Positions 22,462-63,308 of a stretch of 64,000 nucleotides of DNA are shown piece after piece (the stretch's first letter is position 1; each line of letters begins with the position of its first letter). The stretch comes from Nemopilema nomurai (taxonomy: Eukaryota; Cnidaria; Scyphozoa; Rhizostomeae; Rhizostomatidae). The stretch is from NCBI GenBank assembly GCA_003864495.1, contig PEDN01001370.1:124001-188000 (forward strand), read 5' to 3'. The notes beneath the pieces are model-generated. The model worked only from the letters and a program-made list of their open reading frames with translations. It did not search any database and was not told the DNA's origin. Made by a program: the position numbers and the translations under genes.

Positions 22462-25400
22462 ATGGCTTCTATCAATGGTTTCTCTCTTCGATTTTTAGTC
22501 TGTCTTCTGTGTACCAAAACAGGTTGGTAGTTAATCTTGGTTATCCTCACCGTTCTAGAATAATAGATTAGAAACTTGATCGAGTATTGTCGTCGGTTCC
22601 TCGTTTTGTAAGATGACTTTTAAAAAGAAATGCTCAAGGTTATACGTAGAGGTAAACATACCAGCAGACCACTGGCCTATTTGTATGTTGGGGATAAGTT
22701 TCAAGAGTAAATAACTGTGTCTGAAGTCTTGAACTTAATGCTTGTGAATCGGCTTTATCCGACGGTAATTGAACTCTTTCCTAATGTACTTTCGGCTTCC
22801 CATTCAGCAATTTGTGGTTGATTTTTCCTTGATTTGTATTTGAATTAAAAATGTCGCTAGTGTAAGTAAGTCGATTTATTACCAAGTTCAATGCTGAGGG
22901 TATACTCTGATTCCTATAAAATAATCAACTTTACTGTTACACAGGGCCTGAGTGTCTTTCAACCTTTTCTCGATATTTTGCCAACATTTTAGGCGTTTTA
23001 GATTCGTTATAAAAGCGAGTGTGTAATTCGCATATTTTAAACGAAAATGCCATTTGGCTGTCCTTTATCAATTCATCTGCTACGAAATACTGTGGCGTTG
23101 TCTTCTTCTCGAAATATGTTTGTATGCATGCCAACCGACAGTCAACAATTTCGAAAATACTTTTATTCTCGTTGTTCTCTTGAATAGGTTTCAGACACAG
23201 TAATAACTCACCACACATCGAAAGGTCATTAAACCAATTTGTTTCCATGAAACCTCTTTTGTACCTGTTGTCAACCCTTTTTAAAAACACCGTAAAATGC
23301 TTCGGAAATTGAGGCCATCATGAAGGGCGGGCCCACACTCCCTTGAAAGGTTTGTTGGAAAGTCGTTAGTATTGATTCCTAAGGAAAGAGAATAAAAAAA
23401 GAGGGACAGTATTAACAAGTTGAGCCGCAGCTTCTTCGTGGATATTTGAATCGTAGTGACGTAAGCATATGGGAAGCATAAACCCCAGACCAGAGCAAAT
23501 ATAAGCTGAAAAGGCATTTGCAATGGGAAATGCAATTTCGGATATTATTTTGCACTCGACTATAATTTACGTCTTGTGTTTTCGCATTCGGAAAATGTTG
23601 TGAATTAACGGTATTTCCCGAGGATACCGGACCCAATTTGCTTTCTTCTGGCCAACAATTTGCCTTCTTTCATCTCAAGGAACAACGTCTAACCACTTCC
23701 TTCTTTCGACATGAGTTTCGCATTAGGAAGATTCCTGCTAGGGAATTAGATTTAGAAATCTGGCACTACAGAGATCAACGCACCACTAACTGCAACTCCT
23801 TAAGAAAAAAGGGGGGGGGTATGATTCTAGTTCTAAGGCGTGCTCATACCAGAGAGTTTCCCTTTCTTATTTCACTTTTCTTGGTTTGACGATGGAGGTG
23901 GGTAGCAAAACCCTCCAACAACTAGAACTAAAGGCTGGTTTTCATATAACGTAGTTCGACGACGTATTTCATCGCAATTCAGGGTTCACGATTTTTACGA
24001 CATATGAAAACTGCAAAACGTAATTCACCGTAATTCGCCTTAATTCACCGTATTTTGTCGGAAGAAACAAATTTTTTTAATTTCTTCTGATGAATTACGA
24101 CGAATTACGTTCTATTAAGATTATTTACGTTAGGCGGTTTTCATAAAATTTGGTCAGTTTTCACATAACGGAAATAATCTTAATTGATCGTAGACTTGGA
24201 ATTGCGATGAAATACGTTGAAATACGTTATATGAAAACCAGCCTTAAGTTTTCTTGGGATGGCTTTGGTAATTAATTCAATTGGGGGCTTTGGTATGTAA
24301 TTCAATATGTTTCTCCCGCGCTTGTGGCCAAAACTTTTGGGGGAAAGCATTTGACCAGAAGCTATTGGGAGCTGTAAACTTCTAGATCCGCAGATCCTGA
24401 CTGGCTTTGTTTTTACACAGTGATCGCGGAATTCATGCCAAATATCAACTGTGGCCTAAGAATGACGGTAGTCCCAACGAGTTTGGACGCCTCATACCGC
24501 TACTATCCTTACTTTGTCAGTTTGAGTCGGTGCCAAGGCTCACAAGGAAGAACTCCTCCAGCATTGGTAGAGTGCGTCCCCGCAGAGGTGGAAACGGTGA
24601 ACGTCGAAGTGAGGCAGCTGCAATCAACCGACGCGCCAAATGCCCGAGGTGCCCCCAATGTGCAGAATAAGATGTACGTACCGTTGACCAACCACACCAA
24701 GTGCAAAGTCCAGTGCGCCTTCAAAAGGGAGGATTGCAAAGCGCCGAATGTTTATGACGAAAGAAACTGTCGATGCATATGCAACTTAGGCCTAATTGGC
24801 CCCGCTGGAATGATTTGCCGTGATCCTCGTAAAATGTATGTTTGTTATTTTCTTTTGACAAAGTTTCCTGTGAATGAAAAGGCATCAGTAGTTGGATTTA
24901 CTTCATGAACCTTTCCCAAAAATCCAAAGCAAGGGTCGTAGTAATATTTCAGGGCCATAAAAATTGACTGCTCCACAGCTGGGAGTTGGAGGAGGGTTTT
25001 GCCTGTTAATGTCATACTTGGGGAACATTTATTAGTAATTTTTATTATAAACAATGAAAATGATTGCAAAAATGTTTATTTTGCGTTATTATTGAGGAAG
25101 GTTTGAATTATGAAATTGCAGTCTGAAGAAGGTTCTAACTTTTCTGGGGTCTGTAAAATTCCCTCCCCCTTCCTGTACAACTCATACTTAAGAGATACCC
25201 AGGGATATTTATGTTTGTTTCTTTTGTTTCAGTTCAGTTAACGACCCTTGTTGTGAAGATTCGCATTTAAACTGTATTATATTCTTCAAATGCTGCTGCA
25301 GACTTGATAAAAATAACAATTGCAACAACCTTTAATGTCATTGATTAGTTAGTAAGATGAAATAACGAGAAATAGAGTCTGTGCTCATTGATAATAAGAG

Positions 25401-26939
25401 ACACCGTTTTATTAGATGGAGTAGCGTGGCTTGTGGCTGCATGTGCAAAAACACAAGACCCTGCAAAAACCGGCGCCAATACTTTGACCAAAACAGTTGC
25501 TCCTGCAAATGCAAGAGAAGGCGCGCAGCTACGAAGGGCTGTGTATACTACGGTGAAAATTACGATGCATTAACCTGCAGTTGTATCAAGAAAGCGAGAC
25601 GGGTCAAGCAAAACCAAAGTTAGTAAGTATTTTTTTTTTTTTCCTTTTGATTAGGAAATTTCTTTGATTGATTTGACTATTTGCTCATAAAAGCAATAGT
25701 TTGTATGCCCGAGTGCAAAGCAGTACTGAAAGTCACAGACTTGGTTGATCAATAAATTGTTCAGTTTATATTACTTGATTTTATCTCATAATTTGATTCG
25801 ACCAATGCAGCCAGTGGTTTCAGTATAATCATTCACAAAACTTGTCATTGATACTCAAGTAGCTCTTGATTAGAGAAGCCTGAACGTGAATGGTATGATA
25901 GACTGGTCACTTGATTACGTGACTCTGTGCAAATGTCATGCTCCATTCTATCATTTTTCAGACACGAATCAAGATGGAAATGACGAGAAAGACACTGGAT
26001 TCTGGCTTGGGGCAGCAGCTGTAGAATTCCTTGTCATGCTTTTCGCCTTCGACATATTCCTGTACAAGCACCAGGCTGGGCTATCATTTACCATCAAGTC
26101 CAAAATTTCGAGTGTGGACAAACCAAGGAGTAGTGAGAGTGATGGCCTTTCGGAAGATGCACTCGAACCCACAAAGTGTAAGTAGACGTGTCGATTCAAG
26201 CGTCAATTAACATGCTCCGAAGGGTTATGATATTTAGTTTGGTTTTGGAGACCTTTGAGCGACCTCTTTTAACATAGAGAATTTCCCGTGGTTAGTGTTG
26301 CATGTTACCTTGACTGTAATGTTCTGAACGACCTGTTCCCTTGACATATAGGAAAACAGGACCACTTGCTAGACCTTCTACATTTTCAAGAGGTAGTGGG
26401 TATCTCTCCTGCTATTACCTACATTTGCAAATATTTTGACTGAAGTGTGCACTTCAACTCAAAATGACACCTCTGTTTTTCCTGCTGTTCCCTTATTGTC
26501 TTCCATCACGGCTTCTGCTTGAAGTTTTTTTGTGAAGATCACTGTCAGAAGTTCTGTCCCTTTTTTACTTCATAAGAGGAGCAGCTTGTATTATAAAATA
26601 AAAAAGGGGACTGAACTTCTAAGATTTATGTACAGGGGATTTTCGTAGCAAAAATGCAAATCCGCTCCTTCAAAAACTTGATTTAACCAACAGAAATCCT
26701 TAACCTAAGAAGAACCGTTGCTTCTGGAGAAATAACTGATACCCAACGTAATTATTTGTCCTTTTTATTTCACAGATCGTCTAACGTTTAGAGAAATCCT
26801 TCGTCGCCAATCGCGAGTTTCGAGTTCACTTCGGAGACGGTCATCTACGTATTCAAATGCATGCGCTGGTCCCCAGACCCCGCTCATTACGTCACCAAGC
26901 CAAAACAACATTGCAGAAGATGTGTTTTTCCAAGATTAA
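22462..26939 (+). CDS. Membrane-anchored VEGF-C/D-like protein, gene A
   Basis: Exons 22462-22522, 24421-24835, 25416-25618, 25962-26177 and 26776-26939 (phases 1, 2, 1, 1) give 352 residues. In order: a signal peptide (residues 1 to about 20); a PDGF/VEGF-type cystine-knot domain (about 31-119) with C31, FVSLSRCQG, ALVECVP and the glycosylation sequon NHT before KC; a CxCxC repeat (C-x10-CRCIC); a second set in exon 3 (CGCMC, then C-x11-CSCKC, then CVYYGENYDALTCSC); one transmembrane helix in exon 4 (about 240-260, FWLGAAAVEFLVMLFAFD); and a basic, Ser-rich tail ending EDVFFQD. The order matches VEGF-C/D up to the membrane anchor, which those lack. Both interchain cysteines and one knot disulfide are missing. 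A donor GTTAGT ends exon 3; the alternative GTAAGT there would create a stop. Intron 1 holds a MITE. It could be a tethered ligand or a receptor. Confidence 0.85.
22937..23290 (-). other. 117-codon open frame in intron 1 of gene A, unknown
   Basis: Minus-strand open frame without an ATG at its first codon (GTG). Composition is protein-like, with several Cys and charged residues and no low complexity, but no family is recognised. It may be a fragment of a decayed gene or element exon. Confidence 0.2.
23932..24244. mobile_element. 313-bp MITE with TAA target duplication
   Basis: Terminal inverted repeats of at least 22 bp (AGGCTGGTTTTCATATAACG at the left, its complement at the right) are flanked by TAA on both sides (23929-23931 and 24245-24247). 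Three-base TWA duplications are typical of PIF/Harbinger-type elements. The interior is a series of AATTACG/CGTAATT-type short inverted motifs without coding capacity. It is inserted in intron 1 of gene A. Confidence 0.85.
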
Positions 26940-28288: not shown

Positions 28289-28412
28289 TACCGTAAATCC
28301 TCGAATTGCCCCCCCCTCGAAAAAGCCCCCCCCCCGACTCTCGAATAAGCCCCCGCCCTAGAACTACAAATTTTCAATAAGCCCCCCCCCTCGAATAAGC
28401 CGCCCCACACCC
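28289..28412. repeat. Interspersed-type repeat with CGAATAAGCCCCC units
   Basis: Several copies of a CTCGAATAAGCCCCCCC motif follow a head reading TACCGTAAATCCTCGAATTG. The look is that of a dispersed low-complexity repeat or MITE fragment. There is no coding capacity. Confidence 0.5.
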
Positions 28413-30328: not shown

Positions 30329-30370
30329 GACAAACAGAAAGACAAACAGAAAGACAAACAGAAAGACAGA
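30329..30370. repeat. 12-bp tandem repeat (GAAAGACAAACA)
   Basis: About three and a half perfect copies. A separate (CATT)n-rich stretch follows at 30440-30560. Confidence 0.85.
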
Positions 30371-32557: not shown

Positions 32558-35500
32558 ATGGGTCATATTTTGCTGATTAGTATCCTACTGCAGGTCCTAA
32601 GTCAAGGTATGTTAAATAATACGATTTTCACTGTGTCGTGATTAAAATTGTCGCATTGGAAACAAAAAGTTTGCTCTGCGAGATAATGTAGCCTAGGCCG
32701 CTCCCGGCTTCGTTTCTCTGGAGGGGACACTTCAGGTGCATAGTAATGTATTCGTGTGTAAAATGAACTAAAAACCGGGACATTTTCTCCTCCTGTTGCC
32801 TCTGATTTGACGATTACCGTTTCATTGAAATCGAAACGGAAACGAAGCTTTCGTAAACTTCCTGGACAACATCTTACCACAGCTGATGTGGGGAAAACCA
32901 TGCATCTAGGAAATAGTATCCTCGCAAAACTCAAACTTAAATCATTTTGGTAAGTGATATTTAAAAGGATTTTCCAGAAAATTGGTGGCATTTCCTTGAC
33001 TATTTTGGCAGTTAAGTTTTGTCAGACGAGACCAGGAATTGCTGATAGAGGGAAAACAAACAAATTCGGATTCGCATCACGAATTACAGTCACTGAGTCT
33101 ATGAAGTGTCAAGTGTGTTTACAAAGAGAATTGCCATTTCATAATCAAAACCGCTTGTTACGGGTTTACTAAAACTCATTTGATGGTGCTCAGACAATTT
33201 ATAGCATACTTGGCAAGACATTAGTCAGCGTTGAATGGGTTCTGCTAAAATGAGAAAAACTCGGAACGTGAACATTGGGAGTTGGGGAACCGCCCCTTTC
33301 GTTTTGCTGCCGCTACCAAAGACCTGCGGGGTTGCATTATTGATTCTGCCAATACTTTTTTAGTTTAAGAAACCTTTTGCATTTCGATCCAACAGTGACT
33401 TGTCGAGCTCCGCAATATTTATAACGCGAAATACAGCCCTTATTTCTCCAGACTGCCAGTATGACAAATTTATATTCGATATTATCTAGTAATTTCAATA
33501 GTGCAAGTGTACTTTTGTCGCAATTACCAAAGTAAGAGATGGAATCTCCAATCCAGTTTCCTATCGTATTGCATCTCCAAACGTTGTAGTCATGGATACT
33601 CGCCTATCATTATGGGGGACTTTTCGAGCTAGCGAGGTGTATTTTTTACTTAAACCTTCCTGTTGAAATTCTATATTCGCCTCTTGTTTATTGCTAATTC
33701 GGGTTCAGTCATCCATGAACTCAAAAGGCCGCTCGTCGTGTGCAGAAACACGAAACTGCGGGTTGTGATGACCTGGAAAGTCTTATTTAGTTTCTGTGTG
33801 AGCAACCCTTTTCTCGACTTGAGCTGCAATGCTGTGGACGACACGGCGTTAAACCTTTCTATTGTTGTTTGGTTTCCAATATGATTATCCGGGCGTTGTA
33901 CCCAGAATCCACTGGCTTTCATGGTCTCAAGATCTTTCTTGAACGAACACCGCAAACTATTCGCTTGTAGCACATGCGATTTGCGGAAGGTCACAAACGG
34001 ATTCTTAGAACTGCAGACAATAGAGTTCCAAAGTGTGATGTCACCAAAAGTCTATCGTAAGAATTTTTAATTTTAGCCACACAACATAAAGGACCCCCAT
34101 GAAATAGTTCCAAATGTGCAAATTGACCAAATATGCTTAAGATCGGTAAAGATATGGACAATGAAAGATTTGAAGTTTGCTGTCGAATCCCTGTTATTTT
34201 GGCTCAGTTCGCAAAGTTATGAACAGAGACCGGAATACAGAGGCTTGGAGGGAAAGAGTCAATACAAAAAGTGGTCATATCTCTACCATTTTCTAACACA
34301 ATTGACTAATTCTGCTCCTTTCGAGGTATTTCATGATGCCCTTTCAGGTTATACAGTTCAAATTCAAGTTCCTAAAATAGAATTTTTGTGACATTAATCA
34401 CTTTAGAACTCTGTCGTTCATGCGGAATGACCAATGGCTGTGATTTTATTTTGTCCTTCGTTTTCATTGCAATCTTCAAAGTGTGATTAATGTAGCATTT
34501 TCATTCATGGTCCTGGTTTTCCAAATAGAATTTTGCATAGCGCCACCGTTGTTTATTCAATTGCTCTTCGCTTGCGTGCCAAGCCGCATATCGTGCAATG
34601 TCCTATTGGGTTGGCAAGTGCTTGCTCACGGCAGTGTGTTTGCCACTCTTGTCCGGCATGTTGCGTGGGAATGTTTTCGTTTCTTGCATTGTGTCAATGG
34701 CCTTGTTTTCTTTCATTCGTTCTGCTGGAACAGTAGCAGAAATATCGAACGGGGAGCTCCTTCTAAGCGTCCCAGAGTACTGGCGCAGCACAGCATTTGA
34801 AATTGACTCGACATTTTTCATACTTCCAGGGGCATTATTGTCTTGACCGTGAGAGCTATCGGCCACGTAATTCCCTTTCCTTTTTTGTTGTAAACGGGCC
34901 ATTTTCTTCCTCATTTATTCAATTTTCTCCCATCTCCTTCTAAGCATCGCATCCTTTACTTGCAAAATTCGTCCCAATCATTTTTTAACGTCGTGTGCAT
35001 TGGGTCTTGTGGTTATTTTCACGAGAAGTTTGTACGATCTCGGATGTGAGATCTCGGTAAAGAGGCCAGCAAAGTCGGCTTCTATGTAAATAGGCCCTTA
35101 ACATTATTCGTCGCTATGTCAAATCTCGCTATGATGATGTTTGTTGATTAATTTTCCCTTTCCACATGAGCCAGTGGTATTATTGATGTCTCTCTCAATT
35201 TAGCCTTGTGCGAAAACAACGTCACAAAGCGTTTGCCAAACGAGGAATGTCGCTTACGAGAGACACTTGTTCACGTGGACAAGCAGGGTAGCAAATACTA
35301 CCCCCTGATAGTCAAGCTACATCGCTGTAGAGGCGCATGCAGGCACTACCCCCCGTCTGTCAAGAAGTGTGTCTCCGGCACACCTTCAAAGTACGTTGCC
35401 GTCAAAGTGACCAGTTTGAGAAACTTCAAAGGAGACACGGTATACCTGCGCAATGATTCTTCGTGCAGTTGCCAGTGTGTTCACGATGAAAAGGCGTGCT

Positions 35501-37688
35501 CACCCAAAACGCAGACATTCGATCCACGTTCTTGCACGTAAGTCAGGCTTTTCCATCGCCATCTTTCTTTATTACAAACGCATTATTACAAGTTGGGGAG
35601 GGGGCAATTTGTAGATTTTTTAGGGTAAGGCATGGCAATGATGCTAAGTAGTTTTGTTAGAAAATTTACACGAATAAGGGACTTTCTTCTACATGAACCC
35701 CTTGGTGGTAAAATTGCCACAAGCCATAATTAATATGCCATCTGCAAATATTTTGCCTCTTAGCTCCTTCACTGCAAGCATTTTTCCCTGAAGTCAAAAC
35801 TCTGTTTTATGTAATGATAGGAGAGGCACTTTCTTCATAGATGCCAATGCAAGCCGGAATACAGGCTTGTTGCTTGGAAGTGCCAGCCTCCCTTTCACTG
35901 GGACCCAGTCACGTGTAGCTGCGGTTGCAACCTAAGGTGCGGCTACCTGGAGCAACTTGACAAGAAACAATGCCAGTGCACATGCAAAATGGATGCCTAC
36001 ATGAAATGTGCCCAGATGAACAAGTACCTCAACCCAAGCACATGCGAATGTATGTTGACAGCAGACAAGGAAAAGGCTACGGGTCAACAATGTAAGACGA
36101 CTACTTTTCTGACGTTTTGTAACGATGATGGTTATAACAATAATATTGATAATAATGAAGGCCCTTCTGCTTGAGTCAGTAGTGAAACTGTAACACATTC
36201 ACCGCAAACACTATTTACAGCTAGAGCGTATGTAATAAATATCTTCACTCGATACTTCATGTCCGAAAATCCCTTTTTATGGCGTCATGTCGACTCGGCA
36301 AAAGTGTTGTTGATACCACGTGATACCAGGTATTCTGGAAAGTACCGTAATAGTACCACGTGCCATGGGCCTACTATGTTGTTGGCTTCAAATACTAGAA
36401 TCACCTCGCCTTTTTGATCTTATTTGTTTTATAGTTTATTGCTTGATTTCACCACTTTATATTCATGGATTCAGTTTACCATTATACTCCAGAGCTTGCT
36501 CTCCATTAGAAGACTTCATTCCTTTTCTAATTTAAAAATTGAAAACCATCGAGTAGGCTCTTCTAGCACAAGCAGAATGGAAAGGCCTAATGGAAGGCTG
36601 CATTCTACAGCAGATTCAAGCGTAACCATTCCTCCGCAGTCATCATCCTCTCTCCACAGCTTAGCACTGTACATTGTTCTAGTTGCAATGTACCACCCTG
36701 TAGATTACAATATTACTTGTAAATCATTTCAGCTTGTGAGGGCCTGCCGAGAAAGTGGATTGTCATTCTGGTGGTCAGCGGTATTGTGGTACTGCTTGTT
36801 CTTGTGTTTGACTGCACACTGTACCACAAGAAGACTGGGTCGCTGTACAAAGTTACACATTGCTGTAAAAAGAAATACAAAAAGAAAACTGAAGAACGCT
36901 CAGTATGCTTGCGTAAGTGAGCCTGCCATGTTTTTGTTTTTTGTGCGATTGGTCAATGAAAAACTGCTTGAATTTCACTACTTTCCCTAAGTAAAAGCGC
37001 ATAGGGAGGGTTACAGATGAAATGTTACAGATGAAACTACACCGCGCAACAGCATCAAGGTAAATGTAAATCTTAGATTTTCAGAAAAGAAAGCTCCCAA
37101 CTAAATTCAGCATTTTGGGAGGATTTTCATACAACCGAGTTGAAATGAAACATGATTTTTTTCAGTTGTTTCTTAGCAAAGTTTATGCCCAAAATCAAGA
37201 TCGCCATGTTCTACGAATTATAAGGCCTAGGCCATTTGACAATCCTAATGACAATAAATTTCACTGTAACACGATGTTGGCACGAAACCTAATCAAACGT
37301 TGAATTGAACAATTACAATCACATTCGTCGAACCAATCATATTTTCAAACTGTTACCCGAGGTAAAATATTTGACACGGTGATTCGTTACGTTGCATTCT
37401 ATTTACGCATTTCCAGCCTTTTTGTGGAGAATTGAAGAAATTATTAAGAATGACTTTTAGGTTCGGCACATGGCAACGTTTCATGTAGGCCTTGATTCCA
37501 GCAAGAAAGAAAGAACGAACAAATAGCGCTGCGTGTAGGAAAGAACGAGATTATTCGCGGAAGCGAGTGTTTTCCAGCGACCAGCAGGGCCAGTTTGATG
37601 TTAATCAGTATGGAATTAAGAAAATTCGTAGAATTCACCCCTGTAACCTTTTTTGTCTTCAGCAATGCGAACACCAGATGAAGGCTGA
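32558..37688 (+). CDS. Membrane-anchored VEGF-C/D-like protein, gene B (most divergent)
   Basis: Exons 32558-32606, 35204-35537, 35841-36091, 36733-36912 and 37663-37688 (phases 1, 2, 1, 1) give about 279 residues. The signal peptide is MGHILLISILLQVLSQ. The cystine-knot domain keeps all six knot cysteines: EEC, HRCRGAC, KKCV and SCSC (after sequon NDS). Positions equal to both VEGF interchain cysteines are non-Cys. The CxCxC repeats in exon 3 read CSCGC, CQCTC and CECM. The transmembrane helix (about 220-242, WIVILVVSGIVVLLVLVFD) is followed by LYHKKTGSLY, a juxtamembrane motif shared with C. The lysine-rich tail is short. The last exon is the weakest part: the phase-conserved model ends MRTPDEG, while an alternative donor GTATGC (36902) would give a different tail ending at 37725. 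Exon 3 uses the acceptor TTCTTCATAG at 35840, because the earlier AG is out of frame. Confidence 0.8.
34603..34914 (-). other. 103-codon open frame in intron 1 of gene B, unknown
   Basis: The minus-strand frame starts MRKKMARLQQKRKGNY and is hydrophilic, Ser/Lys/Asn-rich and apparently disordered. No family, splice partner or promoter is recognised. It is kept only because its composition is more protein-like than its neighbours. Confidence 0.15.
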
Positions 37689-39596: not shown

Positions 39597-42500
39597 TCAG
39601 GAGAAAGGTGTCCGAAGTGTAGAGGTATCCACGATGATCTGAATAAAGATGCAGTTGTTCTTGATGTAGACTTCATTCGCAATTTTGCGGTGACTAACAA
39701 ACAGCGGCACTCCAGAAGCGATATTCATGTCCGATTTAGGCCGGCGAAAACTCGATGATGCTGCGTCGGGCCTGAAGGCCTCTGTAGGATGGGCATTTCC
39801 CTCTTGTGACAACAGTTTCATGGTGATTTTGCAGGGAAACGGCCAGTCAAGCATTGCGTCGTATTCGCCTCTCATCACGACAAAGAACAGAGATATATGG
39901 CTTCCCTTGCCTTGCCCGTCTCCGTTTAAGTAGATCCGGGCGCACATCTTGTAGCCGAAACGGCTGCGGAAGAGAAGGACGCGTTAAAAGTGAGCATAGT
40001 TTCTTGGTTGAAGTATACCGTTCCGAGGGTGTTAGAGGCTTGGATGTCACTTTTTTAATTGGGGCAAGAGCTCCAAAATAAACTAAGATGGCGATGAAGG
40101 TGCTAGGACCACACTGTTTAACCGCTAAAGCCAGCAGAGCAGGGCTGGAACTTTAAATCATTTTCAAAGTTGTCAATTTTTAATCAAAACTGTCCCTCCA
40201 GATGCTAATGGCCATGTCTCTCTCAACAAACACTGAATTTTTTTGCTTATTAATTTCGCTTTCTTTTTTATTTTGCTAAATATTAAGGCCCCGTTCACAC
40301 GGGAACCCAATCGTTTCGTTTCATTTTATTTCCAATTTCTGGAACGGAATAGGATACTGTTCACACGGTAACGGAACGATTACGTATCGATTTTTGTTTA
40401 TGTTCAGACGGGAACGCAATCGTTCCGTTCTGCAATTTGTGCGCCAAAATTAGCAAATGATCTTTAATGCGCATGTCCATAATAGGGATTGATTTCGTCA
40501 TTCTGATTTATCTCTGAGCCGATTTCGTTGGTTTTAAAACAATTTGAATAAAAAATCATCGGATGGAGAATGCTAAAGCGCCCCAAAAGTGCAAGCTCAT
40601 GGTAAAATAGAAGCCAAACCTAAAGGGAAGGGACTTCAAAGGTTGCAGAATGGTGTTGAGTATTTTAAATGGACGGACAACGAGAGTGTAGCTAGTGAAA
40701 CTGCAAGAAGACCAAAAGTGTTTGTGAAATCCTCCATTTTCTTCGCTGTGATTACTATTGTCACCTGCTTCCCACAACAACAACACAGACGCAAGTGCCA
40801 AAGGCGAAACTCTTATCGTTCCAATTTTTGGACCAGTTCTACGCGTTCACACGGGAACGGAACGGAATGATTGCGTACTGTTCCACTTTTAGTATCACTT
40901 ATTTTATCGTTCCGCTTTTTGGAACGGAACGATGTCATTTTTAGCGGAACGGAGAAGAACGGAACGGAGAAGAACGGAACGGAGAAGAACGGAATGGAGA
41001 AGAACGGAACGGAACGTGTGAACAGGGCCTTGATTATGAGGCTCAAAAAGCGGCCAATTGACAACAGCATTAAGAGACACAGTACTTTAACAGGAAGGCA
41101 CACGAGCTTCCAGGTGCCTTAGCATTGCCTGCAGCCGAAACGACATTTGGTACGCAATTGATCAAAGTGCCACGAACCTGGTGTAGAAGGGAGGGCTATA
41201 CAAAGATGGCGTCTTGCCAGTAATCGCATCCTGCATTCGCCTCGTGTAATTATCAATCTTCCACAGCAACTTGCCGTCAAAGGAGGTCGACTCCAGTAGC
41301 TGCAGCTTCAAGTTCAACTCCGCAATTTGCACGTCTTGGATGGCCAACTGACTCTCCAGCTTTTCCATACGTTTGCTTGTGTCTTCAACATCGCTTTTCG
41401 AAGGGCCTGCAGAAGGAAACGGATGTTTATTGCTTCTAATCTGAGAGCAATTTGCACTAAAAAGCTGCCTCGCATGACAATGATGACTCAACCGAGGCTA
41501 CTTTCATACTACAAGCCTTACTCTCTACATTCTGAATTCAAGACTCTTTATGAAAACAGAAAGATTGGAACAACGACTGACTCACTTGAATGAGCAAACA
41601 AGTGTGACAAAAATGGGAAACTACATCATTGGTGCACATGATCTATGACAAGTGGATTACTGCCCGAGGGGTCAATCTGTCCATTCCAGAACTACTGAGC
41701 ATTTTGGAAAACACTTCGAAAAAAATTTCCATCTAAACCTGACTAAAATAAAACTTTCTGTGCAGGTAAACCCGCAACATAGAATTTATTTTGTTGTATG
41801 CAGATTTTCAAAGAGGACGTCTTGGCGTGCTATTGAAGTTCTTACTACTTTTGACCCGTTGACCCAGCATTCTAAAATCCCTAGTTACGATGTAAAATTC
41901 CTTTCACAATGGTCTTCCTACGAAAACTTGATAAGAATAAGCCTTTCATGAACAAACAGATAAACCTACCCAACCAAAGAACAAACTCGGCTATAAGAAA
42001 ACCACCTGGTTTTAGAATGAAGAGGGCCCTAGAAAACTACTTGGTACCAGAAAGAAGAGGGCCTAAAAAACAACCTGGCTCTAGAAAGAAAAGGGGCCTA
42101 AGAAAACTACTTGGTTCTGGAAGAAAACAACCTGGTTCTACTTTGATAAGGTCCCCAGAGGCGATTTTCGTACCTTCATGTCCAGACTTTGATGTTTCCG
42201 GCACTTTAACCACAGCCTCACTCGCTTCTTGCCTTAGCATGTCTGTCTTCTGCTGAATCCTCCTCGCTTGATCTCTCAAAAACTCCACATTAAGAGCCAC
42301 AGATTTCCCACTCTCCCTTTCTAAGAAGTCTTGATGCCCTTCCGTCTCCTGGTTTCTACGCCTAAGAGTCGAAATATCTGCTGCAGCTGCATTAAATCTT
42401 GACTGCAAATCTATATGATCCTTCTTCAAAGCATCAATTTCCTTTCCTGCAAACAACGCAAGGCCCATTAAGACAAAAAATCAGCAATTATATCCAATCG

Positions 42501-45500: not shown

Positions 45501-46576
45501 CCCAACAAACAGAACAATCAAATGACTAAAAAAATTCGTTGTTTCTAGAAGAAGGAATTATTGCGTCCAACGAAATAAACATGAGAAAACGAAAAACTAA
45601 ATCGCGTTTGTGTAAAACGAAACTAAAATGAAAAGTTAATTCTGTAACAGCATTTGTGAAAGTTTGAATTCTTTCTTCAACAAGTTAACGATTGATGAAA
45701 ACAGTTTTTGGTATCAACAATTGATTACCAAAATTTTATTTACCATATCGCTGTCATACGGAAATCATAATGGCGGTCCTTTGAATAGTTATGTTGATTA
45801 AAAATGCATCTTGCATCCTTACAAAATTGGTCGAAGAAAGCTTGACCAAATTTTGAGATCTAAATTCAGTTAAGACGAACAGTTGGGTCGAAAAACCCTC
45901 ACGAAAACTAGTTGTTGAGGGCGACCTACAAAATTCTTTTCGCAAGTACCTCAAATTCACGAATGGCGCCTTCCCATTTGCACCCATTGTCCCGGTACAC
46001 ACAATATGTTTGCAAATCAAGGACTTCCCTCTTTGCGTAGGTGTCAGGAAAGACTTGTGAGGTAAGAATGATTGATTGGTCTACAGGACAAATGATGCCC
46101 AACTTGCCACTAAAACATAAATTTGAGATTTTCACCAAAAATGGATCGTTAGAATGAAGCGAGGAGCATTCATTTTCAAGGACCCTTAGCCAAGGGGGAA
46201 AATAGCTTTACCGTTCTAAATTACATACCCCCTTGAGTTTAATGAATATTCGTTAAAATTATGTATGGAAATTGCAAATAAATTAAGAAAAAAATTAGAT
46301 TGCATCAAATACCAAAATGCCACAATGCAACATATTGAGCAACAGTGCTATTTACAATAGAACGGGAGTCACACTTTTGCGGAAATTTTTCTCAGTCTTA
46401 GACAACATAGGAATGATAGTCACATCAAACCTTCTTGCTTCAAGGTCTTCGTAGCATTCCTTGCACAAACGGTGGCCACACTCAGTCTGGAAAGGCTCGC
46501 GCAAAGCTAATTTGCAGACTGGACACTGGTGGTGACACTCGAGAGGTTTAACGAAATTCCCATCGTACCCAACCAT
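39597..46576 (-). CDS. TRAF3-like signalling adaptor / E3 ligase
   Basis: Eight coding exons: 46431-46576, 45950-46109, 44782-44943, 44255-44410, 42948-43116, 42174-42446, 41178-41406 and 39597-39963. They give 553 residues, matching TRAF3/TRAF5 length, and every phase agrees. In order: a RING finger (about 14-59; CPVCKLALREPFQTECGHRLCKEC, ending CPVD across the first intron); TRAF-type zinc fingers (about 80-208; CxxxC...H...C repeats such as CPAECGERVPRYQLDKHLDETC); a coiled coil (about 220-400); and a C-terminal MATH domain (about 405-553) with LLWKIDNY, SPPFYT, GYKMCARIYLNGDGQGKGSH, MRGEYDAMLDWPF and DMNIASGVPLFV. TRAFs link TNF/IL-1/Toll-type receptors to kinase and NF-kB signalling in the cytoplasm. 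The intron after 42948-43116 appears to be GC-AG. An acceptor at 46591 lies just upstream of the ATG. Introns carry several small repeat elements. Confidence 0.93.
40285..41031. mobile_element. MITE-like element with GTTCACACG ends and GGAACGGA arrays
   Basis: The left end AAGGCCCCGTTCACACGGG is mirrored at the right by ACGTGTGAACAGGGCCTT. The interior is built from many copies of GGAACGGA or its complement, including a local tandem of GGAACGGAGAAGAAC units at 40950-41015. No coding frame. It lies in the last intron of the TRAF3-like gene. The target duplication is not clear. Confidence 0.75.
43400..43584. mobile_element. Small TIR element with TTACACTG / GATCACTTT motifs
   Basis: The ends read GGCCCGG-x-TTACACTG and, inverted, CAGTGTAAACCGGGCC. 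The interior repeats GATCACTTT/AAAGTGATC motifs in both orientations. About 185 bp, inside a TRAF3-like intron. It resembles the neighbouring GTTCACACG element in style but not in sequence. Confidence 0.6.
43996..44019. repeat. Interstitial telomeric-type repeat (CCCTAA)n
   Basis: Just under four units of CCCTAA in a TRAF3-like intron. It is short; it matches the TTAGGG telomere type used by cnidarians and most animals. Confidence 0.85.
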
Positions 46577-46590
46577 TGTTTTTAATTGAG

Positions 46591-48240
46591 CTGAAATGAA
46601 TAAAATCATAAAGGAGTCTAATGTGAAAATGTTTGCCTCATAAATTCTCCAGGGGATCTCACGTAAAAAAAGTTACTTCAATAAGCCCGTCAGTACACTG
46701 GGATGGCGGCATTTACTTTTTCCCAATAATATTGAGTCTATTCTCTATTTCAGCTACAGACAACCAAATCATTTACCTGTCCCGTTTACACATACTTAAA
46801 AAGAGATGGCACCATTTTTGAAGATTAGAAACCAACAAATGAACAAGTTTCCAGCTCTCGATGCTTTAAGTAAATAAATGTTTCGTATTGTAGAACTTCA
46901 AAATAGCAAGGAACAGCAGAACCATAACTTTTACATACTTTAATTATCTTCAGTATAACACTTCTCTGTATATTCAAACGTTAGTGTCAACAAGATATTT
47001 GCTTTTGGTTCCTTGTATAAGATAGGTGAAGCTCCAACTTCAGCAAAGCTGCTTTTTATTTCAGCTTTCGTGCCTCACTATCTAAAATATCACAGAATGG
47101 CTCATCCAGATTGGCAATGATGCATTCCAAAGATCTTGTAAGCAAGGCTTCTGATTCGAGCAGTTCAGGCAATATGCCATCTAAATGAGCTCAAACTCTA
47201 TACCTTGTCTCCAATACCTCAGAGTAATATGTGTATTGATAATTAAATCTGTTTGTTGCAGCAATTGCTGTGCAAGTGTTCAATGTTGTGCAAGGAAACA
47301 TCCGCTTGCCCACAAACACATCAAACACCTTTTTCATTTAAATTCATGCATCTGAAAACCCAACTTGCTAAGGACCAGAGTTGAACTGGGACATAGCATA
47401 CTGTGGAAATGATAGGGTAAAAGCAATATAATTTGAATTGCAATTTTTACAACATACATACCACTGAATTTTATGATTTAGCATTTGCCAAATGGTTTCT
47501 CTGATTTTACTTTGTCTTTTTACTTTTACCTTTGGTCTCAAAATGCAGGACTAATTAGATCAACCAAAGGGTTCTCTAGCAATTCAAAACTATCTGTGCA
47601 ATGTTATAAAAGTAATTTTAACAAATCAAATGCAGCATCCACATTATATAAAAAGATTGAGTGGTTGTATGCTTCAATCAGAACATTGATTCTGAAGATT
47701 AGAAGTAGGGGCTGCAACTCTACAAATGAACCTGGAAGCTATGACCTGTGAGATAACCAACTATGACAGCATTCTATAATATGGAGTAAATAAGCCAAGT
47801 ACTGTGGATTTTTTCATTTCAAATGTTGAAAGACTCAAAAAGTACATTTACAAGGTGTAAGAATGTGATTATATAAAAATTTTATTATGAGAAATTGATG
47901 CTTTGTTGTTATTATTATTATTATTTCAAAATTTTTACATGAGGGTGATGTTGATTGCCGGTTAACCACTGGATAGCAGGCCAAGTCCTTGGCTTTAGTA
48001 TCCAGTTCTTTTCTTATCTTTACTGTTCCTAACAGGCAAGATTTCTGCACGAGTTCTGTGCTACATTCTATTTAAATTTTCTTCACCCTGTTCTTATGTT
48101 CTTTTCAATCTCCAAAAAGAGCTCCAATGATTATTATTATTATCCAGTCAATTTTATTATCATTATTATTATTATTATCATTATTATTTTGAAGTTGTTT
48201 TTCTTTAGATTTCTGACTTAACAATTTTCTAACCGGGTTG
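46591..48240. other. 5' flank of TRAF3-like gene and intergenic DNA
   Basis: No coding family recognised. It should hold the TRAF3-like 5' UTR exon and promoter on the minus strand. ATT/TTA-rich simple repeats occur at 47908-47926 and 48128-48188. Confidence 0.4.
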
Positions 48241-48280: not shown

Positions 48281-49961
48281 TCATGTCGACAATGCCCTTC
48301 TCAGGACATGAGCTGTGCCAGTCAAAACAATTTTTTGGATTTCCTTTAGTGATGGCTCGCCAGGGATCTTGCTGATGTGATTTTCTGTGCCTGTCTTTAT
48401 CATTCCCAATGCACCCACTATTACAGATGCAGTGGTAGCTTTTAATTTCCACATTTTTTGGATTTCAATTTCAAGGTTTTTGTACTTTCTCAGCTTATCG
48501 AACTCTTTACTTGATATATTTCTGTCTGTTGGTATACTCATGTCAATAAGGAGGCAAGTTCCTTCACTCCTGTCTTTTATTGTGATGTCTGGCCGGTTAG
48601 CATTGATGGTTCTGTCAGTGTAAACAGGGAAGTCCCAAAGGATCCAAACATTGTCACCCTCAACAACTGGGTCTGGGTGATGTTCATACCAGTGTTTTGG
48701 GGGTTTCAATACCAAAGTGATGGCAAATTTTCCGATGCAAGTATTGTCCAACTCGATCATGCCTAGCCATGTATTCGTTAGGGGCAAGTACAGCACATCC
48801 TGATACAAGATGGTCAATTGTCTCACACTGTTCATTGCAATATCTGCATTTTGGGTCTGCTCCATTTTTCAATATGTTGGCTTGGTAGTTTTTTGTGGAC
48901 AGTGTTTGATCTTGTGCTGCAAGAAGGAAACCTTCAGTCTCAGCTTTCAGTCCTGCAATTCGGAGCCACTGATGGGCGAGAGTCTGGTCTACATCAGCAT
49001 CTTTATTCCGAAGAACATACTTTCCTTGCAGAGATTTCTGTTCCCATTTCTCTTGCAACATCTTTTGGCCCACAGCCTTACCTTCTCCTTTAACTTCTTA
49101 GCTTCTTTTGTTGCTTCTTCTAGTTCTCCTTGCCTTTCATTGTTTTCTACTTTTGATTCTCGTTCGAAGTTCCTTGATTCTTTCACAATAGAGTGCAACT
49201 TTTTCTGATTTTCATGGTCCTGGACAAGTTGCAACATCCAGTCTTTTTTTGTTTCCAGGTATTTCATATCCTATTGTTGACGTTTTATAACTTAGTTCCA
49301 GTTGTATCATGCCTCTTCCACCCTGTCTTCTCGGAAGATACAGACGATCACTGTCTGCTTTGGGATGGTGCATCGGATGTTATTATCCTGTTGCATGTCA
49401 AAATTTTCTGCATCTTTGTATTCATTTTCTTAATTTCTGTCAAATTCCAGTTGATTACATTAAAAATATATTTACATCACTAATGAGTTTATTGCTATAA
49501 TCCTGTTCTGTGAGTTTAGTTCTGTTTTTAGGACAGCCTTTACTCGCCTGTAACACTCCGTCCTTATCTTTTCTTTCATGGTAGTATGTTGAATACCATG
49601 ACCCTTGTTAACACCAAAGATACTTGTACACTTCTTCCTGCTCCAGTTCTTTGATGATTGCGTCAAGATTCAGTTTGATGTTATTCTTCTTCACAAGTTT
49701 ACCCCTTTGAAATGTAGCTTTCGCCCATTTGTCAAGCCCAAACTCCATTCCAATATCATCACTAAAACTCTTTACAGTTTTCAACATTCCTTCCAATTCA
49801 TTGTCATTTTTGGCATATAACTTAAGGTCGTCCATATAAAAGAGATGATTTATTACTTTGTCTTTGATTGTATACCCGTATCCAGATCTGTTAAATTCCA
49901 ATGTGAGTAAGAGCAATACAAAACAAAAGTGGTGAGAAGGAGTCACCCTGGAATATACCAC
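48281..49961 (-). mobile_element. Decayed R2/NeSL-like non-LTR retrotransposon, 3' part
   Basis: Read on the minus strand: reverse-transcriptase catalytic box FYMDDLKLYAKN near 49.83 kb with downstream MEFGLDKWAKATF; a linker block (IRTECYRRVKAVLKTELN); a CCHC-like knuckle CRYCNEQCETIDHLVSGC near 48.83 kb; and a restriction-like endonuclease segment, RPDITIKDRSEGTCLLIDM, with the PD...D arrangement. Frames are broken between these blocks, so it is not active. The order RT, zinc knuckle, endonuclease defines the R2/NeSL/R4-type elements rather than the clade of the 20.8 kb LINE. The 5' part of the element is not recognisable. Confidence 0.82.
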
Positions 49962-49989
49962 TGTTGATACTTATATTTCCTGTTCTTGT

Positions 49990-53227: not shown

Positions 53228-56200
53228 ATGTTCAAAAACAATCCACGTTTAAGCTTTGGCTCCATTTCATGGGTCGCTATTATGGCTGCAAACTTCGTGG
53301 TACTACGCGCTGCAGGTAAAATCACAGTTTTCTATTTCCTTTCAGTCAAGCTATCGTTTTCTTTGTCCTCTAGACGTTCATATTGAAAGCCGGACATTTC
53401 TTTTCTCTATTGTTTAGAACCCCCGTTAATGAGGCAATTTATCGCACAAAAATCATCACTGAATTCAGGCCAGCCAGCCATCGCTCGAATTGGCCTAGTA
53501 TTGTTTCCAGTGCTAACAATAGTAAATCAGAAATCCTGTATTTTCAACACCCAGATAAGACTATTTTTACTTGAATCTCAGTTGATATTGCAAACCTACA
53601 AATTACCCACAACGAGGCTAGAGATGACTTTCCTTCCAAGAAAATTCCGAAGTTCTTTAACGAGGTAGAGAAATTTTTTAGAAAATCAAATTTTTATAGG
53701 ATTGAAAAGTTCGAAAGAGCGTGTGAATTGTAGCTTACTGGCGTGAACTCTTTACTTTTTGGCATAATTTAAGGTAGTAGCACCGAGTTAGAATTGCGCC
53801 ATAAATGTTTTTTTGTATGTATATATCTTATGTATGTATGTATGCATGAAAAGCCTGTATTTGAATAACCTAGTACATCAGAAAGCGGTAATTCTTTCAT
53901 GGTGTTTATAAGATATCTGTTTTCTTTTTGGAGTCAGATTCAAAACCCTACATTATTTCGTCTTTAAAATACCTCTAATCTCTAGCGTCTAAGTCCAAAA
54001 AGCCTCTGAAGGGGCCTAGTAATAACAAAAAAAGAAATATGAAGCAGGTTCTCTTCAATCTCAACTTAGTATCAAACATTAAACATCCTTGCCTTTCTAT
54101 TTTGAAAGGCCTGCTTTAACAGTCATCAACCTCGTTTCAGCTGATCAGCCTCGTTTTCCACACAATGTCTTCTGCCATCCACGCCCAGCTCCAATTGCAA
54201 CAAAGAATCACATATACCCTTATCACGTTCTTTTGTCACGATGTCAAGGCTCAGTCGGCCTGCATCCGCCCACGAAAGTACGATGCATTCCAGTTGAGGA
54301 GGTGCCTGTAATTTTCCGAGCTACAGATCTACACATCAACCGCAATATTATATTCGAATTGAAAAACCACACAAAATGTGGCAGTGAATGCGTTGCGAAG
54401 CCTTCGGATTGTTCATCGTTGGAGAAGTTCGAAGACTGTCAGTGTAAATGCCCTTCCGTTTTGCCAGCAAGTGCCACAAAGTGCCCTACAGGACAAAGGT
54501 ATGTAATTCACGCTAATGGAACTAAATTGAAAGCAACAGAGCCTTGTGAAATGAAAATTATAATTTCAAGTGGTTTTTAGAGAGCAACGAAGAATAATTT
54601 GCCGTCATTCGTAAATGGCCTTTATTGTGTCATTACTGAGACAGAAGAGGGGGGCACTCTTTCCCCTCTGTTCAATAAAGAGTTACTTGGAATATGAAGA
54701 GCAAGATGAGCAGAATGATATCATGTTTGTTTGCTTTTATAGGTGGAGCCAGAGTCAGTGCAGATGTACATGCAGCACTCGCAAGAGCTGTGGCTCGGGA
54801 AGGGCTTTTGATGAGAAGGCATGTTCCTGCCAATGCAAAAAGAAGCGAGTAGAGCGATGTATAGAAAGAGGGCTTTTCTTTGACCACGAGAAGTGCCGGT
54901 GCTTACGTCACTCAGAAAGCACAGGTAAGGGTGTGCTCCTAAACTGCTTAAAGCCTTTGGTGCCTAGTCCCTCTGCTCCAAAAGGAGCATCCAGAAAGTT
55001 CCAAGGGCGCTATCATCGTCATGTTTAGATCAAGTAAGGATGTCAGGACTAGTGTCATTAGATTTGAAGCTTCTTCATTCTTCTTACTTCATTTTCTTCA
55101 TTTGGAAAGAAATCATGTCATTGAGTAGTAGGAAGAGTTTTTGAAAACCGCACCTTTTGGAAGGTCTACTAATGCATTTTGGATAAGACTGACTATTAAA
55201 GCGAATCTTCAATAAGATTTGTAAAGAGGAAAAAGACAGTTTAGATGTTTTTGTTGCTGTCTAACTTTCTCATCTTTGAAAAATGGCCCCTTATGCCGAT
55301 GCTTGGTAAGCATTTTCAGTTTACGTCGGGATGTTTATTCTATAGAGCGCTTAAAATATGATAAGTGTAGAATCCTAAATTTTCTTTTTGGTAAATCAGT
55401 TTTTTAAGAACTAGATTTTGCAAGTGTTTTTAAAGAACTAGAATTTGATTTTGCAAGCGTAGGATTCCTTGTGGCCCCTTTTACAATTCAAATGAGTCAT
55501 ATGATTACGATAAATATTAGAAAGTGAAATATCGGTGGATTTGAAGGAAGAGTAATATCGTTTTCATATAAACATTTCTCTGTTTGTAGGTTCACACCCC
55601 GGATTTGGTGGAATGGGTGTTTATTTTTGGATCTGTTTGATGCTGGCTGAATTCATCATCCTTCTCGTTGTTTTTCAACTGTTTCTGTACCATAAGAAGA
55701 GTGGCTTCGTCTATATGCTACGAAATCACTTTCGAAGGAAACACGGCTCGTGGGATAAAAGCAGCACAAATAAGCAATGTGAGTGTCTTTGCTTAATATA
55801 TGAAGTATTTAATAGGGGGTTTAAGCAGCAAGACGAGAGAGGCAGTATCAACTTAACTCTCATCTTCATTGCCAAAGTTTCTAGCACCAAAAGGCTGTGC
55901 TTTACAGGGGGTTAAGTATCTCTGTTTCCCTATGTCAAGAATCTTTTAGAGGGGAGAAATAATCCTTGTAGGAATAAAAGCTCTTCATCAAAACAATATG
56001 CGGCCCTTTTCAGAAGAAACCCTAGAGACGGCTGCAATGTTCCATCACATAGTCTGGATTTTGATAACCGCACCTGATAAAGCTGGCCTCCAAATTGCCA
56101 TAAAGAGTAGGATTTTGCAAAGTTAGGTCATCGACTCAGGGTAAACAGTGTAGCCATCCTTTGCCATGTGCTAACCCCCTGATAAAACCAATGTCGGTTG

Positions 56201-56540
56201 TTGGTAAGAAGAGACTTAGAAGTTATGAATCAAGGAAGAACTATAAAGTTCTTCTTGCCCCAGCTGATTCACCGTAAATGTGCAGATCGATTGAGAATTG
56301 ATTTTTAAATGAAAGAGTATCACTGCAATGATTGCACAATATTCCGTGTTTCCCTTCACAGCAAGTTCTGCTAAAGCCCTAAATGTTTTCAGAGACTTGA
56401 ATTTTGACAAGTGAAATATTCTTACCCTTTTAGGTGACAAAAGTGTTTGTGGTATTGATTCAAGAATTATTGACGAGGCCGATCGAGATGTTTACTTTCT
56501 TCATTCAAGATATCAAACAGTTGAAGGACAACCACTTTGA
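53228..56540 (+). CDS. Membrane-anchored VEGF-C/D-like protein, gene C
   Basis: Exons 53228-53315, 54141-54498, 54743-54924, 55590-55778 and 56434-56540 (phases 1, 2, 1, 1) give 307 residues. The signal peptide contains WVAIMAANFVVLRAA. The cystine-knot domain includes VFCHP, YPYHVLLSRCQGSVG, KVRCIPVEE and sequon NHT in KNHTKC. The CxCxC repeats are CQCKC in exon 2, CRCTC and CSCQC in exon 3, and a VEGF-C-like closing unit FFDHEKCRCLRH. The transmembrane helix (about 218-240) reads YFWICLMLAEFIILLVVF and is followed by LYHKKSGFVY. The tail has two Tyr-centred segments (RDVYFLH, RYQTV). Cysteine losses are the same as in A and D. Its function as tethered growth factor or receptor is unknown; the architecture is the evidence. 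Confidence 0.87.
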
Positions 56541-61100: not shown

Positions 61101-61104
61101 GTAC

Positions 61105-61110
61105 TATAAA
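61105..61110 (+). promoter_or_regulatory. TATA box of VEGF-like gene D
   Basis: TATAAA about 110 bp before the gene D ATG, the same distance class as in gene B. Confidence 0.5.
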
Positions 61111-61219
61111 TGCAGCGTTCCTTTTTGCCAGTGGATTTAACACAGTGCTCTACCGCAGGTCACGAAGAGAGAACTTTAGAAGAACGAGCTCACGAGGATC
61201 TCCGCCACACGTCGCAAAG

Positions 61220-63308
61220 ATGACCAACAAATACTTGCCTGTTTGTGTGTTTTTAGTGCTTGCCGTTGCTGCCTTCGCTCAAAAAGGTTTGATTCGTTTC
61301 ATTTTGTATTCTGTTATGCTGTCATGAATAGTAATGTCGACAAATTGATCTTGCCTTTCGACGTGGTTTTTGACCAATATAAACGTTTCAGGTATTCATG
61401 AATGATGCTGCTGTGTTATTTGATTTTCGCCAGATTCTCCATTCGTAATTGTTTATTCCCTATTCGTAGTTTCTTTTGGAAAAATTTTGTTATTCCACGA
61501 ATTCTTCCACTCAAATGTTTTTTCGTTCACCTTGCAGAGCGAAAGACAAGGCACCTAAGAAACCTGGACTGTTCCCCAAGACCAGCCGTGGTGGAAACCA
61601 AGCCGATGTTTTACCCCTATTTCGTCAGTCTCCACAGGTGCAATGGCTCCGTTGGTACCCGATCCCCCGCTCTGATTCGGTGTGTGCCGAAGAAGACCCA
61701 AAACTTTCAGGTTACCTTGAACCTAGGCACTGTGAAACGCATTATAACCATGGAGAACCACACAGAATGCAAAGCTGAGTGTTCGCTGAAGAGGGAGGAC
61801 TGCCCCTACCCAGGGGTGTATGACGCCGATAATTGTAGATGCCGGTGCCTCCACTGGTCCCCACCAAAAGACATGCAACAATGTGGCCCCTTAAAAAGGT
61901 ATGTAGTCCAAATTGGCCATTACCAGCTCATTTTATGTGCTATAAAATTGGTCGCTCCAGCTTACAATTAACTGTACTTCCAATGATGTTGAGAAAAATC
62001 GTCAGGGCTAACGTTAGTTCCTTTACGAAAATTTCCGATTTTCAACTGATCTGTAGGCGTACCTGTAGCATCAATACCACGCTCTGTTGACAAGGTCATG
62101 CCAGCACGTTTTGTTTCGCTTTTGCAAATGACTTTGTTTTTGAGACAAATCAACCCACGCCAAAACTGAAGCTCAATCACGTGTAAGCTCGATCACGTGT
62201 AATTTCATCGTGTAATTTTACCGTGCAATTTCATCGTGCAATTTCATCGTGCAGTTAATAAAATCGTGTAATCACATCGTGTTGCCTTATTCTCTTCACA
62301 GCTGGAGCAGAATCAAGTGTGGCTGTGTCTGCAACAAAGTCAAGAGTTGTCCCTCCAGGTACATGTTCGATGAAGGATCGTGTTCGTGTAAATGCAAGCC
62401 CAAACGCAAACTGAAGTGTGAGTCGATGGGGGGAACTTTCATTGCGGAAAAATGCAAGTGCAAGAATATACAGCGCCAAACAGCAGAAAACACAGAGGAT
62501 GAAGGTAAGCTGGAATTTCCAATCATTCTTCTTCTTTAAGCAAGAAGTCAACGTTTGAAAAAGGAAACCTGTGCCAATTGTTTAAAGTTACTGAAATTGA
62601 AGTGCAAATTACTGAAAGAGACACTCGTTGTTGTTGTTGTTGCACATCCTGAAGTTTCTATCTAGAAACGCAAGTCTTGTGAGACATGACGCATTAACGA
62701 ACAATTCCTGTTTTCTTTGTAGATTCCTTTGTTGGAAGCACGACATTTTGGATTTATGCCTTGATTGGAGAGTTCTTCTTCCTTCTGTTCTGCTTCGACC
62801 TTATACTGTGCTGCAAGAAAATGGGCCTAATCTATAGAATAACACGGGCGTGTTGCAAAGACAAGACGCCTGAAGCAGATACCGATTACTGCGCGGAGGC
62901 ATCGCCAAAAGAACTGAAAAGTAAGTGTACTTTTAACTTGGAGTATCTATTTCATGGGCAAAAGCTGTTTTTGCCTAGAAATATATCATCACCCTAGTGC
63001 AGTAGAAAGGCATAATGTTAGTTAGATTTAGGGACGCTTCACAGAAAGATAAAAGTTTGATGAAATGTCGAGGCAAAATGGCTTACAAAGTAGCTTGTTC
63101 GACTCATTTCAATACCACGTTATTGTTTAATGCTTCTTTTGTTGCTGTTGTTGTTGCTGTTGTTGTTGCTGTTGTTGTTGCTTTTACAACTCATTGATGA
63201 ATGGATGCTTTTCTTTCAGTACATTTCAATGAAGGCTGCCACACGTCCTTCTCCAGTTTACACAACATCCCCGAGGCCACACATTATGGTGAAATAAGGC
63301 AGTTTTGA
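61220..63308 (+). CDS. Membrane-anchored VEGF-C/D-like protein, gene D
   Basis: Exons 61220-61286, 61538-61898, 62302-62504, 62723-62920 and 63220-63308 (phases 1, 2, 1, 1) give 305 residues. This is the most compact member. The signal peptide includes PVCVFLVLAVAAFAQ. The cystine-knot domain has LDCSPRP, FYPYFVSLHRCNGSVG, ALIRCVPKK and ENHTEC with a sequon. The CxCxC repeats are C-x10-CRCRC, then CGCVC and CSCKC, and the closing unit GTFIAEKCKCKN, which resembles the end of VEGF-C. The transmembrane helix (about 219-238) reads FWIYALIGEFFFLLFCFD and is followed by Cys/Lys residues. The tail ends THYGEIRQF, where YGEI could be an SH2-type site if phosphorylated. Exon lengths and phases match A and C closely, so A, C and D form the tight subgroup. 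Confidence 0.88.
63138..63181. repeat. GTTGTTGCT tandem repeat
   Basis: About four to five units of a 9- to 12-bp TTGTTGCTG-type repeat lie in the last intron of gene D. It is not coding in the model. Confidence 0.8.

Follow-up and report, generated by a model that had tools for sequence, protein, structure and literature searches.

The DNA analyzed here is a 64,000-nucleotide window of the Nemopilema nomurai contig PEDN01001370.1 ("the window" denotes this whole stretch), and searches for relatives covered the 213 Mb assembly. Four VEGF-C-like genes lie on the plus strand of the window (22462-26939, 32558-36912+, 53228-55778+, and 61220-63308; Table 1). Each is predicted to encode a signal peptide, a VEGF domain, BR3P repeats of the CxCxC type, a transmembrane helix and a basic juxtamembrane segment, and this architecture, taken by itself, is very probably correct. 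The gene models were obtained by choosing exons and joining them at GT/AG splice sites, and they recover the four plus-strand genes that a preliminary description of this DNA had placed between 22462 and 63308.

First exons are ab initio picks from a scan for an ATG, a hydrophobic core and a phase-1 donor, which returned one, three, two, and two candidates for genes 1–4, respectively. Candidates thus exist for the signal peptide proposed in each gene, while the first exons of genes 1–3 are tentative. The five-exon plan with phases 1-2-1-1 that had been put forward for all four genes stands in part. Intron phases 1-2-1 are found throughout, together with a phase-1 GT donor beyond the helix in each gene; the five-exon model of gene 4 is complete, and that of gene 1 is complete provided that its exon 5 is the one listed in Table 1, where an AATAAA follows 6 bases past the stop codon. 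A fifth exon was also sought in genes 2 and 3, where several candidates were found, none of them convincing, and the donor alone is present. In genes 1, 3, and 4 the second intron lies directly before the conserved tryptophan at the start of exon 3, but in gene 2 it lies 19 residues upstream of this tryptophan, so that the "one exon plan" consists of three genes and one variant.

Genome searches with genes 1 and 2, the end of gene 4, the C10 protein and canonical VEGF as queries point to six genes: the four in the window, an intronless gene on C10 and a canonical VEGF on C127. The canonical VEGF query gave nine matches up to E 10 in the 213 Mb, none of them outside the canonical gene, C10, and the window. 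Weak matches containing stops occur on C99, C113, and C67, for which the examination consisted of a scan for open reading frames only. The family is therefore larger than the four members originally counted, with five anchored genes found in the genome in addition to the helix-less canonical VEGF. The C10 gene (C10:170177-171211) is a single unbroken frame of 345 codons with no predicted splicing, encoding in order a signal peptide, a VEGF domain, CxCxC repeats, a helix and a 104-residue tail. Its residues span exon junctions predicted in the window (RKI^WSS in gene 1 versus PKIWQSS in C10), and the gene reads like a natural complementary DNA (cDNA) of the anchored layout. As a sign of retrocopying, a long A-run was looked for in roughly 485 bases after the stop codon and none was seen; C10 is here classed on its sequence as an intronless paralogue, and no stronger claim is made about its origin. 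The C10 protein ends in T-V-V, which fits a class I PDZ-binding motif, unlike the ends modelled for genes 1 and 4. Canonical VEGF (C127:2073429-2075611, first exon not sought) has a stop codon and an AATAAA after the CxCxC repeats, and no transmembrane exon was detected downstream when the final 400 bases of each of L027 and L028 were scanned for a narrow motif, a scan that was not exhaustive.

Several comparisons support a VEGF-C-like ectodomain. A profile built from the four window domains matched 32 sequences in the PDB, 31 of them PDGF/VEGF (best E 2e-6), and a placement in a non-VEGF family, the outcome that would have spoken against the original assignment, did not occur. When the isolated domains were scored against PF00341 (cut-off 27 bits), only gene 1 exceeded the cut-off; genes 2–4 (Table 1) and the isolated C10 domain (17.4 bits) fell below it. 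PF03128 (cut-off 15 bits), searched with full proteins, was exceeded by genes 1, 2, and C10, while gene 3 reached 10.6 bits and no match was listed for gene 4; the Pfam searches suggested earlier thus bear out the PDGF assignment for gene 1 and the CXCXC assignment for genes 1 and 2, and leave the other window genes below cut-off or unlisted. The five anchored proteins and canonical VEGF share the columns of three complete BR3P repeats and of one partial repeat, and the proposed combination of a VEGF-C-like ectodomain with CxCxC repeats is supported by the profile, the isolated-domain PF00341 scores and the shared cysteine columns. An AlphaFold2 model of the gene 1 VEGF domain (exon 2) has a predicted local distance difference test score (pLDDT) of 71.2. 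With this model, Foldseek ranked PDGF/VEGF structures as the top 38 among the best 50 of 162 matches (E ≤10), with probabilities of 0.99–1.00, and these include 1mkk, an engineered C61A/C104A VEGF-A; a second structural comparison ranked no family above the VEGF/PDGF rows. The VEGF core YP..V.L.RC.G is conserved across the five diverged copies. Identity between copies is low (27, 30, and 37 percent to gene 1), and the loop before C68 carries four additional residues relative to canonical VEGF. A sequon for N-glycosylation lies in exon 2 of the four window genes just ahead of the C102 position, as NHT in genes 1, 3, and 4 and as NDS in gene 2, with DHT instead in C10. A PF03128 profile search of the genome returned no matches and a search with two models of VEGFR Ig families returned nothing over cut-off; controls were silent in both cases, and the former search hence carries no information.

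The cysteine framework was compared in an alignment of six proteins (genes 1–4, C10 and canonical VEGF) using VEGF-A numbering, in which C51 and C60 are the inter-chain cysteines and C61–C104 a disulfide of the knot; mutant names in the structure and literature results agree with this assignment. Twenty framework cysteines are common to all six proteins, although in gene 1 one of these sits a column off, and canonical VEGF has 24. The inter-chain pair C51 and C60 is missing from all five anchored proteins, whereas the knot pair C61 and C104 is lost together in genes 1, 3, 4, and C10 and kept in gene 2. All six knot cysteines are accordingly present in gene 2 only, so that a strict three-disulfide knot is lacking in four of the five proteins and the eight-cysteine PDGF/VEGF signature in every one of them. 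The "VEGF-type cystine knot" ascribed to all four window genes is correct for gene 2 and strictly wrong for genes 1, 3, and 4. Since the losses are confined to disulfide partner pairs, as the VEGF map predicts, they support VEGF ancestry. The engineered VEGF-A C61A/C104A is reported to retain a similar structure without the knot loop, with unreduced thermodynamic stability and a reduced folding capacity (PMC2759523; cited alongside PMC3328748), and loss of this bond therefore need not destroy the VEGF fold.

The pattern of loss points to chains that the membrane holds as monomers or as dimers without a covalent link. Gene 2 and C10 carry a single stalk cysteine seven residues ahead of the helix segment which is not found in genes 1, 3, and 4, and gene 2 has one further cysteine ahead of its VEGF domain. 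As the stalk cysteine could serve as an inter-chain link, the non-covalent reading is on firmest ground in genes 1, 3, and 4. A tree of the six sequences groups C10 with gene 2 at a weak bootstrap of 49/100, and genes 1, 4, and 3 at 92; the former grouping, if correct, implies two losses of the knot pair. The shared stalk cysteine is a further hint that gene 2 and C10 belong together.

The helix was assessed by the mean Kyte-Doolittle hydropathy of the best 19 residues (KD19) against 2000 shuffles of the local sequence. One hydrophobic segment follows the repeats in each window gene (Table 1), with hydropathy matched by 3, 0, 0, and 5 of 2000 shuffles for genes 1–4, which upholds the single transmembrane helix proposed for each. 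Across the five anchored proteins including C10, KD19 ranges from 2.16 to 3.09 (0 to 5 of 2000 shuffles equal), and the 15 residues beyond the helix carry a net charge of +3 to +5. The best segment of canonical VEGF, which has no helix, scores 0.91 and is equalled in 844 of 2000 shuffles. A single helix being predicted from sequence in all five, the VEGF-C/D trait of a secreted protein without an anchor is absent here. The stalk, counted from the final cysteine of the repeats to the helix segment, measures 21–26 residues in genes 1–4 (26 by eye in C10), and a basic juxtamembrane motif LYHKK.G..Y is found in genes 2 and 3, with variants in genes 1 and 4. Past this motif the modelled tails of 30 to 104 residues align poorly and have no signaling motif or tyrosine context in common, those of genes 2 and 3 being incomplete. 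Between residue 40 and the helix, R-X-[KR]-R sites number zero in all five proteins, although looser basic sites exist; canonical VEGF has none either, and the absence of a furin site was dropped as a sign of retention. A codon-position test on the transmembrane exon, with positions near saturation and little or no third-position excess in pairs with C10, is uninformative on constraint.

Table 1. Exons of the four VEGF-C-like genes and other features of the window (PF numbers, Pfam profiles; KD19, mean Kyte-Doolittle hydropathy of the best 19 residues).
Feature	Coordinates	Strand	Basis
Gene 1 exon 1, putative signal peptide	22462..22522	+	tentative; sole candidate in 19500-24400
Gene 1 exon 2, VEGF domain and first BR3P repeat	24421..24835	+	PF00341 31.2 bits
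Gene 1 exon 3, CxCxC repeats	25416..25618	+	splice model; PF03128 18.1 bits (full protein)
Gene 1 exon 4, stalk, transmembrane helix (about 26006-26062), juxtamembrane	25962..26177	+	KD19 2.16
Gene 1 exon 5, cytoplasmic tail	26776..26939	+	tentative; best of 3 listed acceptors, AATAAA
Gene 2 exon 1, putative signal peptide	32558..32606	+	tentative; top donor score among 3 candidates
Gene 2 exon 2, VEGF domain, all six knot cysteines	35171..35537	+	PF00341 20.6 bits, E 5.4e-4, below cut-off
Gene 2 exon 3, CxCxC repeats	35841..36091	+	PF03128 25.4 bits (full protein)
Gene 2 exon 4, stalk with extra cysteine, helix (about 36759-36815), basic juxtamembrane	36733..36912	+	KD19 3.09
Gene 3 exon 1, putative signal peptide	53228..53315	+	tentative; one of 2 candidates
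Gene 3 exon 2, VEGF domain and first BR3P repeat	54141..54498	+	PF00341 15.3 bits, E 0.024, below cut-off
Gene 3 exon 3, CxCxC repeats	54743..54924	+	PF03128 10.6 bits, below cut-off
Gene 3 exon 4, helix (about 55631-55687), juxtamembrane LYHKKSGFVY	55590..55778	+	KD19 2.75
Gene 4 exon 1, signal peptide	61220..61286	+	of 2 candidates, the nearer and more hydrophobic, with lower donor score
Gene 4 exon 2, VEGF domain and first BR3P repeat	61538..61898	+	PF00341 24.2 bits, E 4e-5, below cut-off
Gene 4 exon 3, CxCxC repeats	62302..62504	+	cysteine columns; PF03128 match not listed
Gene 4 exon 4, stalk, helix (about 62758-62814), juxtamembrane	62723..62920	+	KD19 2.31
Gene 4 exon 5, cytoplasmic tail	63220..63308	+	splice model
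RING	46352-46672	-	over cut-off
TRAF2 zinc finger	45926-46207	-	below cut-off
Start of MATH domain	41162-41497	-	below cut-off
RRM_1	12755-13129	-	profile match
RRM_1	17051-17482	+	profile match
Dynein light chain	15321-15605	-	between the two RRM genes
Major facilitator gene	5093-6810	-	frame 5093-6085 vs MFS_1_like, 158.5 bits
zf-RVT	48684-49097	-	23.3 bits, below cut-off 27.5

Elsewhere in the window, pieces of a TRAF-like gene lie on the minus strand between VEGF-like genes 2 and 3 (41162-46672). Two RRM splicing-factor-like genes, similar by eye, are found on opposite strands (12755-14255, minus; 16479-17482, plus), and putative coding remains of retrotransposons occur at 48281-49970 (minus) and 21313-21801 (plus).

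PDGF/VEGF ligands are regarded as diffusible, mostly disulfide-linked dimers. Vertebrate VEGF-C and VEGF-D combine a VEGF domain with a BR3P (silk homology) tail as the window family does, but they are secreted and processed, bear the full eight-cysteine signature and have no transmembrane helix. Ligand domains on a single-pass anchor, with contact signaling or shedding possible, are known from SCF, CSF-1, the EGF-family pro-ligands and ephrin-B; to our knowledge, none of these bears a PDGF/VEGF cystine-knot domain. The canonical VEGF of N. nomurai shares the cysteine framework of the anchored proteins and has in addition the four cysteines missing from them. It likewise has an intron right before the tryptophan opening the next CxCxC exon, in phase 0 there and one base earlier, in phase 2, in genes 1, 3, and 4. 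It differs in having PSCVSLKRCAGCC complete, an additional intron within the VEGF domain and an end without a helix.

Cnidarian VEGF-C-like proteins with BR3P repeats have already been published (Rauniyar et al., 2023; PMC10328876). In the passages covered, these proteins resemble the window family in that the VEGF homology domain is followed by typically four BR3P repeats and one or both inter-chain cysteines are often lost; loss of C61/C104 is not mentioned there. Unlike here, the main text reports no membrane anchor and uses the words "transmembrane" and "secreted" 0 times, although anchored proteins may well be among its 72 cnidarian sequences. The "Balbiani ring 3-like" proteins of the coral Montipora capitata are, in the portion of the report covered, also multiple and join VEGF domains to a cysteine-spaced C-terminus, with no membrane helix described (PMC6385260). 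The search listings and passages covered, all from open-licence PubMed Central, contain no mention of a membrane-anchored VEGF. The earlier statement that no described family with this layout was known thus holds for the anchored form within that material; the new part is the membrane anchor.

From the layout, the homology and the cysteine losses, which are read directly from the DNA, we infer cell-surface display, the dimer state and contact signaling. The five genes would form a family of type I membrane proteins descended from a VEGF-C-like ligand gene, in which a BR3P stalk presents the VEGF domain at the cell surface for engagement of a VEGFR-type receptor on an adjacent cell. With no inter-chain cysteines in any of the five and one knot disulfide missing from four, the domain is probably either a non-covalent pair or a functional monomer, and crowding in the membrane would take the place of the covalent link between secreted VEGF chains; for gene 2 and C10, the single stalk cysteine could join chains instead. 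Cleavage of the stalk may provide an optional second mode, releasing the ligand. This reading as a whole, a VEGF-C-derived membrane family of contact-dependent (juxtacrine) ligands, is given a probability of roughly 0.45. Against the VEGF domain assignment, PF00341 did not appear in the hmmscan results of any of the five full-length proteins (genes 1–4 and C10). A phmmer search of the PDB with the C10 protein gave no match up to E 10.

The same cysteine losses, of the inter-chain pair in all five proteins and the knot pair in four, would also suit a membrane-tethered antagonist or silent pro-ligand, which binds the receptor or secreted VEGF without activation and limits canonical signaling until processed. 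Pro-VEGF-C is described as binding VEGFR-3, barely activating it and competing with mature VEGF-C (PMC7926383). Yet gene 2 retains all six knot cysteines, and the presence of five intact but diverged copies hints at more than a single role; an antagonist is an unlikely account. A membrane precursor of a soluble ligand, freed by a sheddase cutting the stalk or by intronic polyadenylation after exon 3, is unlikely. The length of the stalks in genes 1–4 and basic clusters in several ectodomains fit such a precursor, as does read-through of exon 3, which meets an in-frame stop in four of four genes; AATAAA or ATTAAA lies within intron 3 of genes 1, 2, and 3 but not 4, a count made with no control. 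However, six-base polyadenylation signals are frequent by chance, and C10 has no intron to retain.

Disulfide loss, low identity between copies and the four extra residues before C68 would fit reuse of the VEGF fold as the scaffold of a structural or adhesive surface protein without receptor signaling; conservation of the YP..V.L.RC.G core and of 20 framework cysteines in five diverged copies speaks against this improbable reading. A receptor or reverse-signaling protein working through its own tail could draw on the cytoplasmic stretch in each copy and on the basic juxtamembrane segment, but the tails vary in length and align poorly, and the lack of a shared signaling motif in those modelled makes reverse signaling, already quite improbable, less likely. 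A gene-model artefact, with the transmembrane exons part of other transcripts and the VEGF-like products released from the cell, deserves very little credence. The exon joins in the window are indeed predictions; the helix-coding exon nevertheless sits at the same place and phase in all four genes, and C10 encodes the entire order in one frame, which also weighs against the case, raised in the preliminary description, of all transcripts stopping before the transmembrane exon. A secreted-only reading was rejected on these grounds, the intronless C10 and the phase-matched exons.

Under the juxtacrine reading, the five anchored genes, outnumbering the one canonical VEGF found, may tentatively be regarded as an undescribed class of membrane-fixed VEGF ligands in which anchoring accompanies loss of the inter-chain and knot disulfides, and which would offer a contact-signaling alternative to diffusible VEGF. 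If true, an anchored ligand domain without those disulfides would change views on how VEGF signaling began, and the family would supply natural variants for probing the purpose of the cystine knot and of the covalent dimer.

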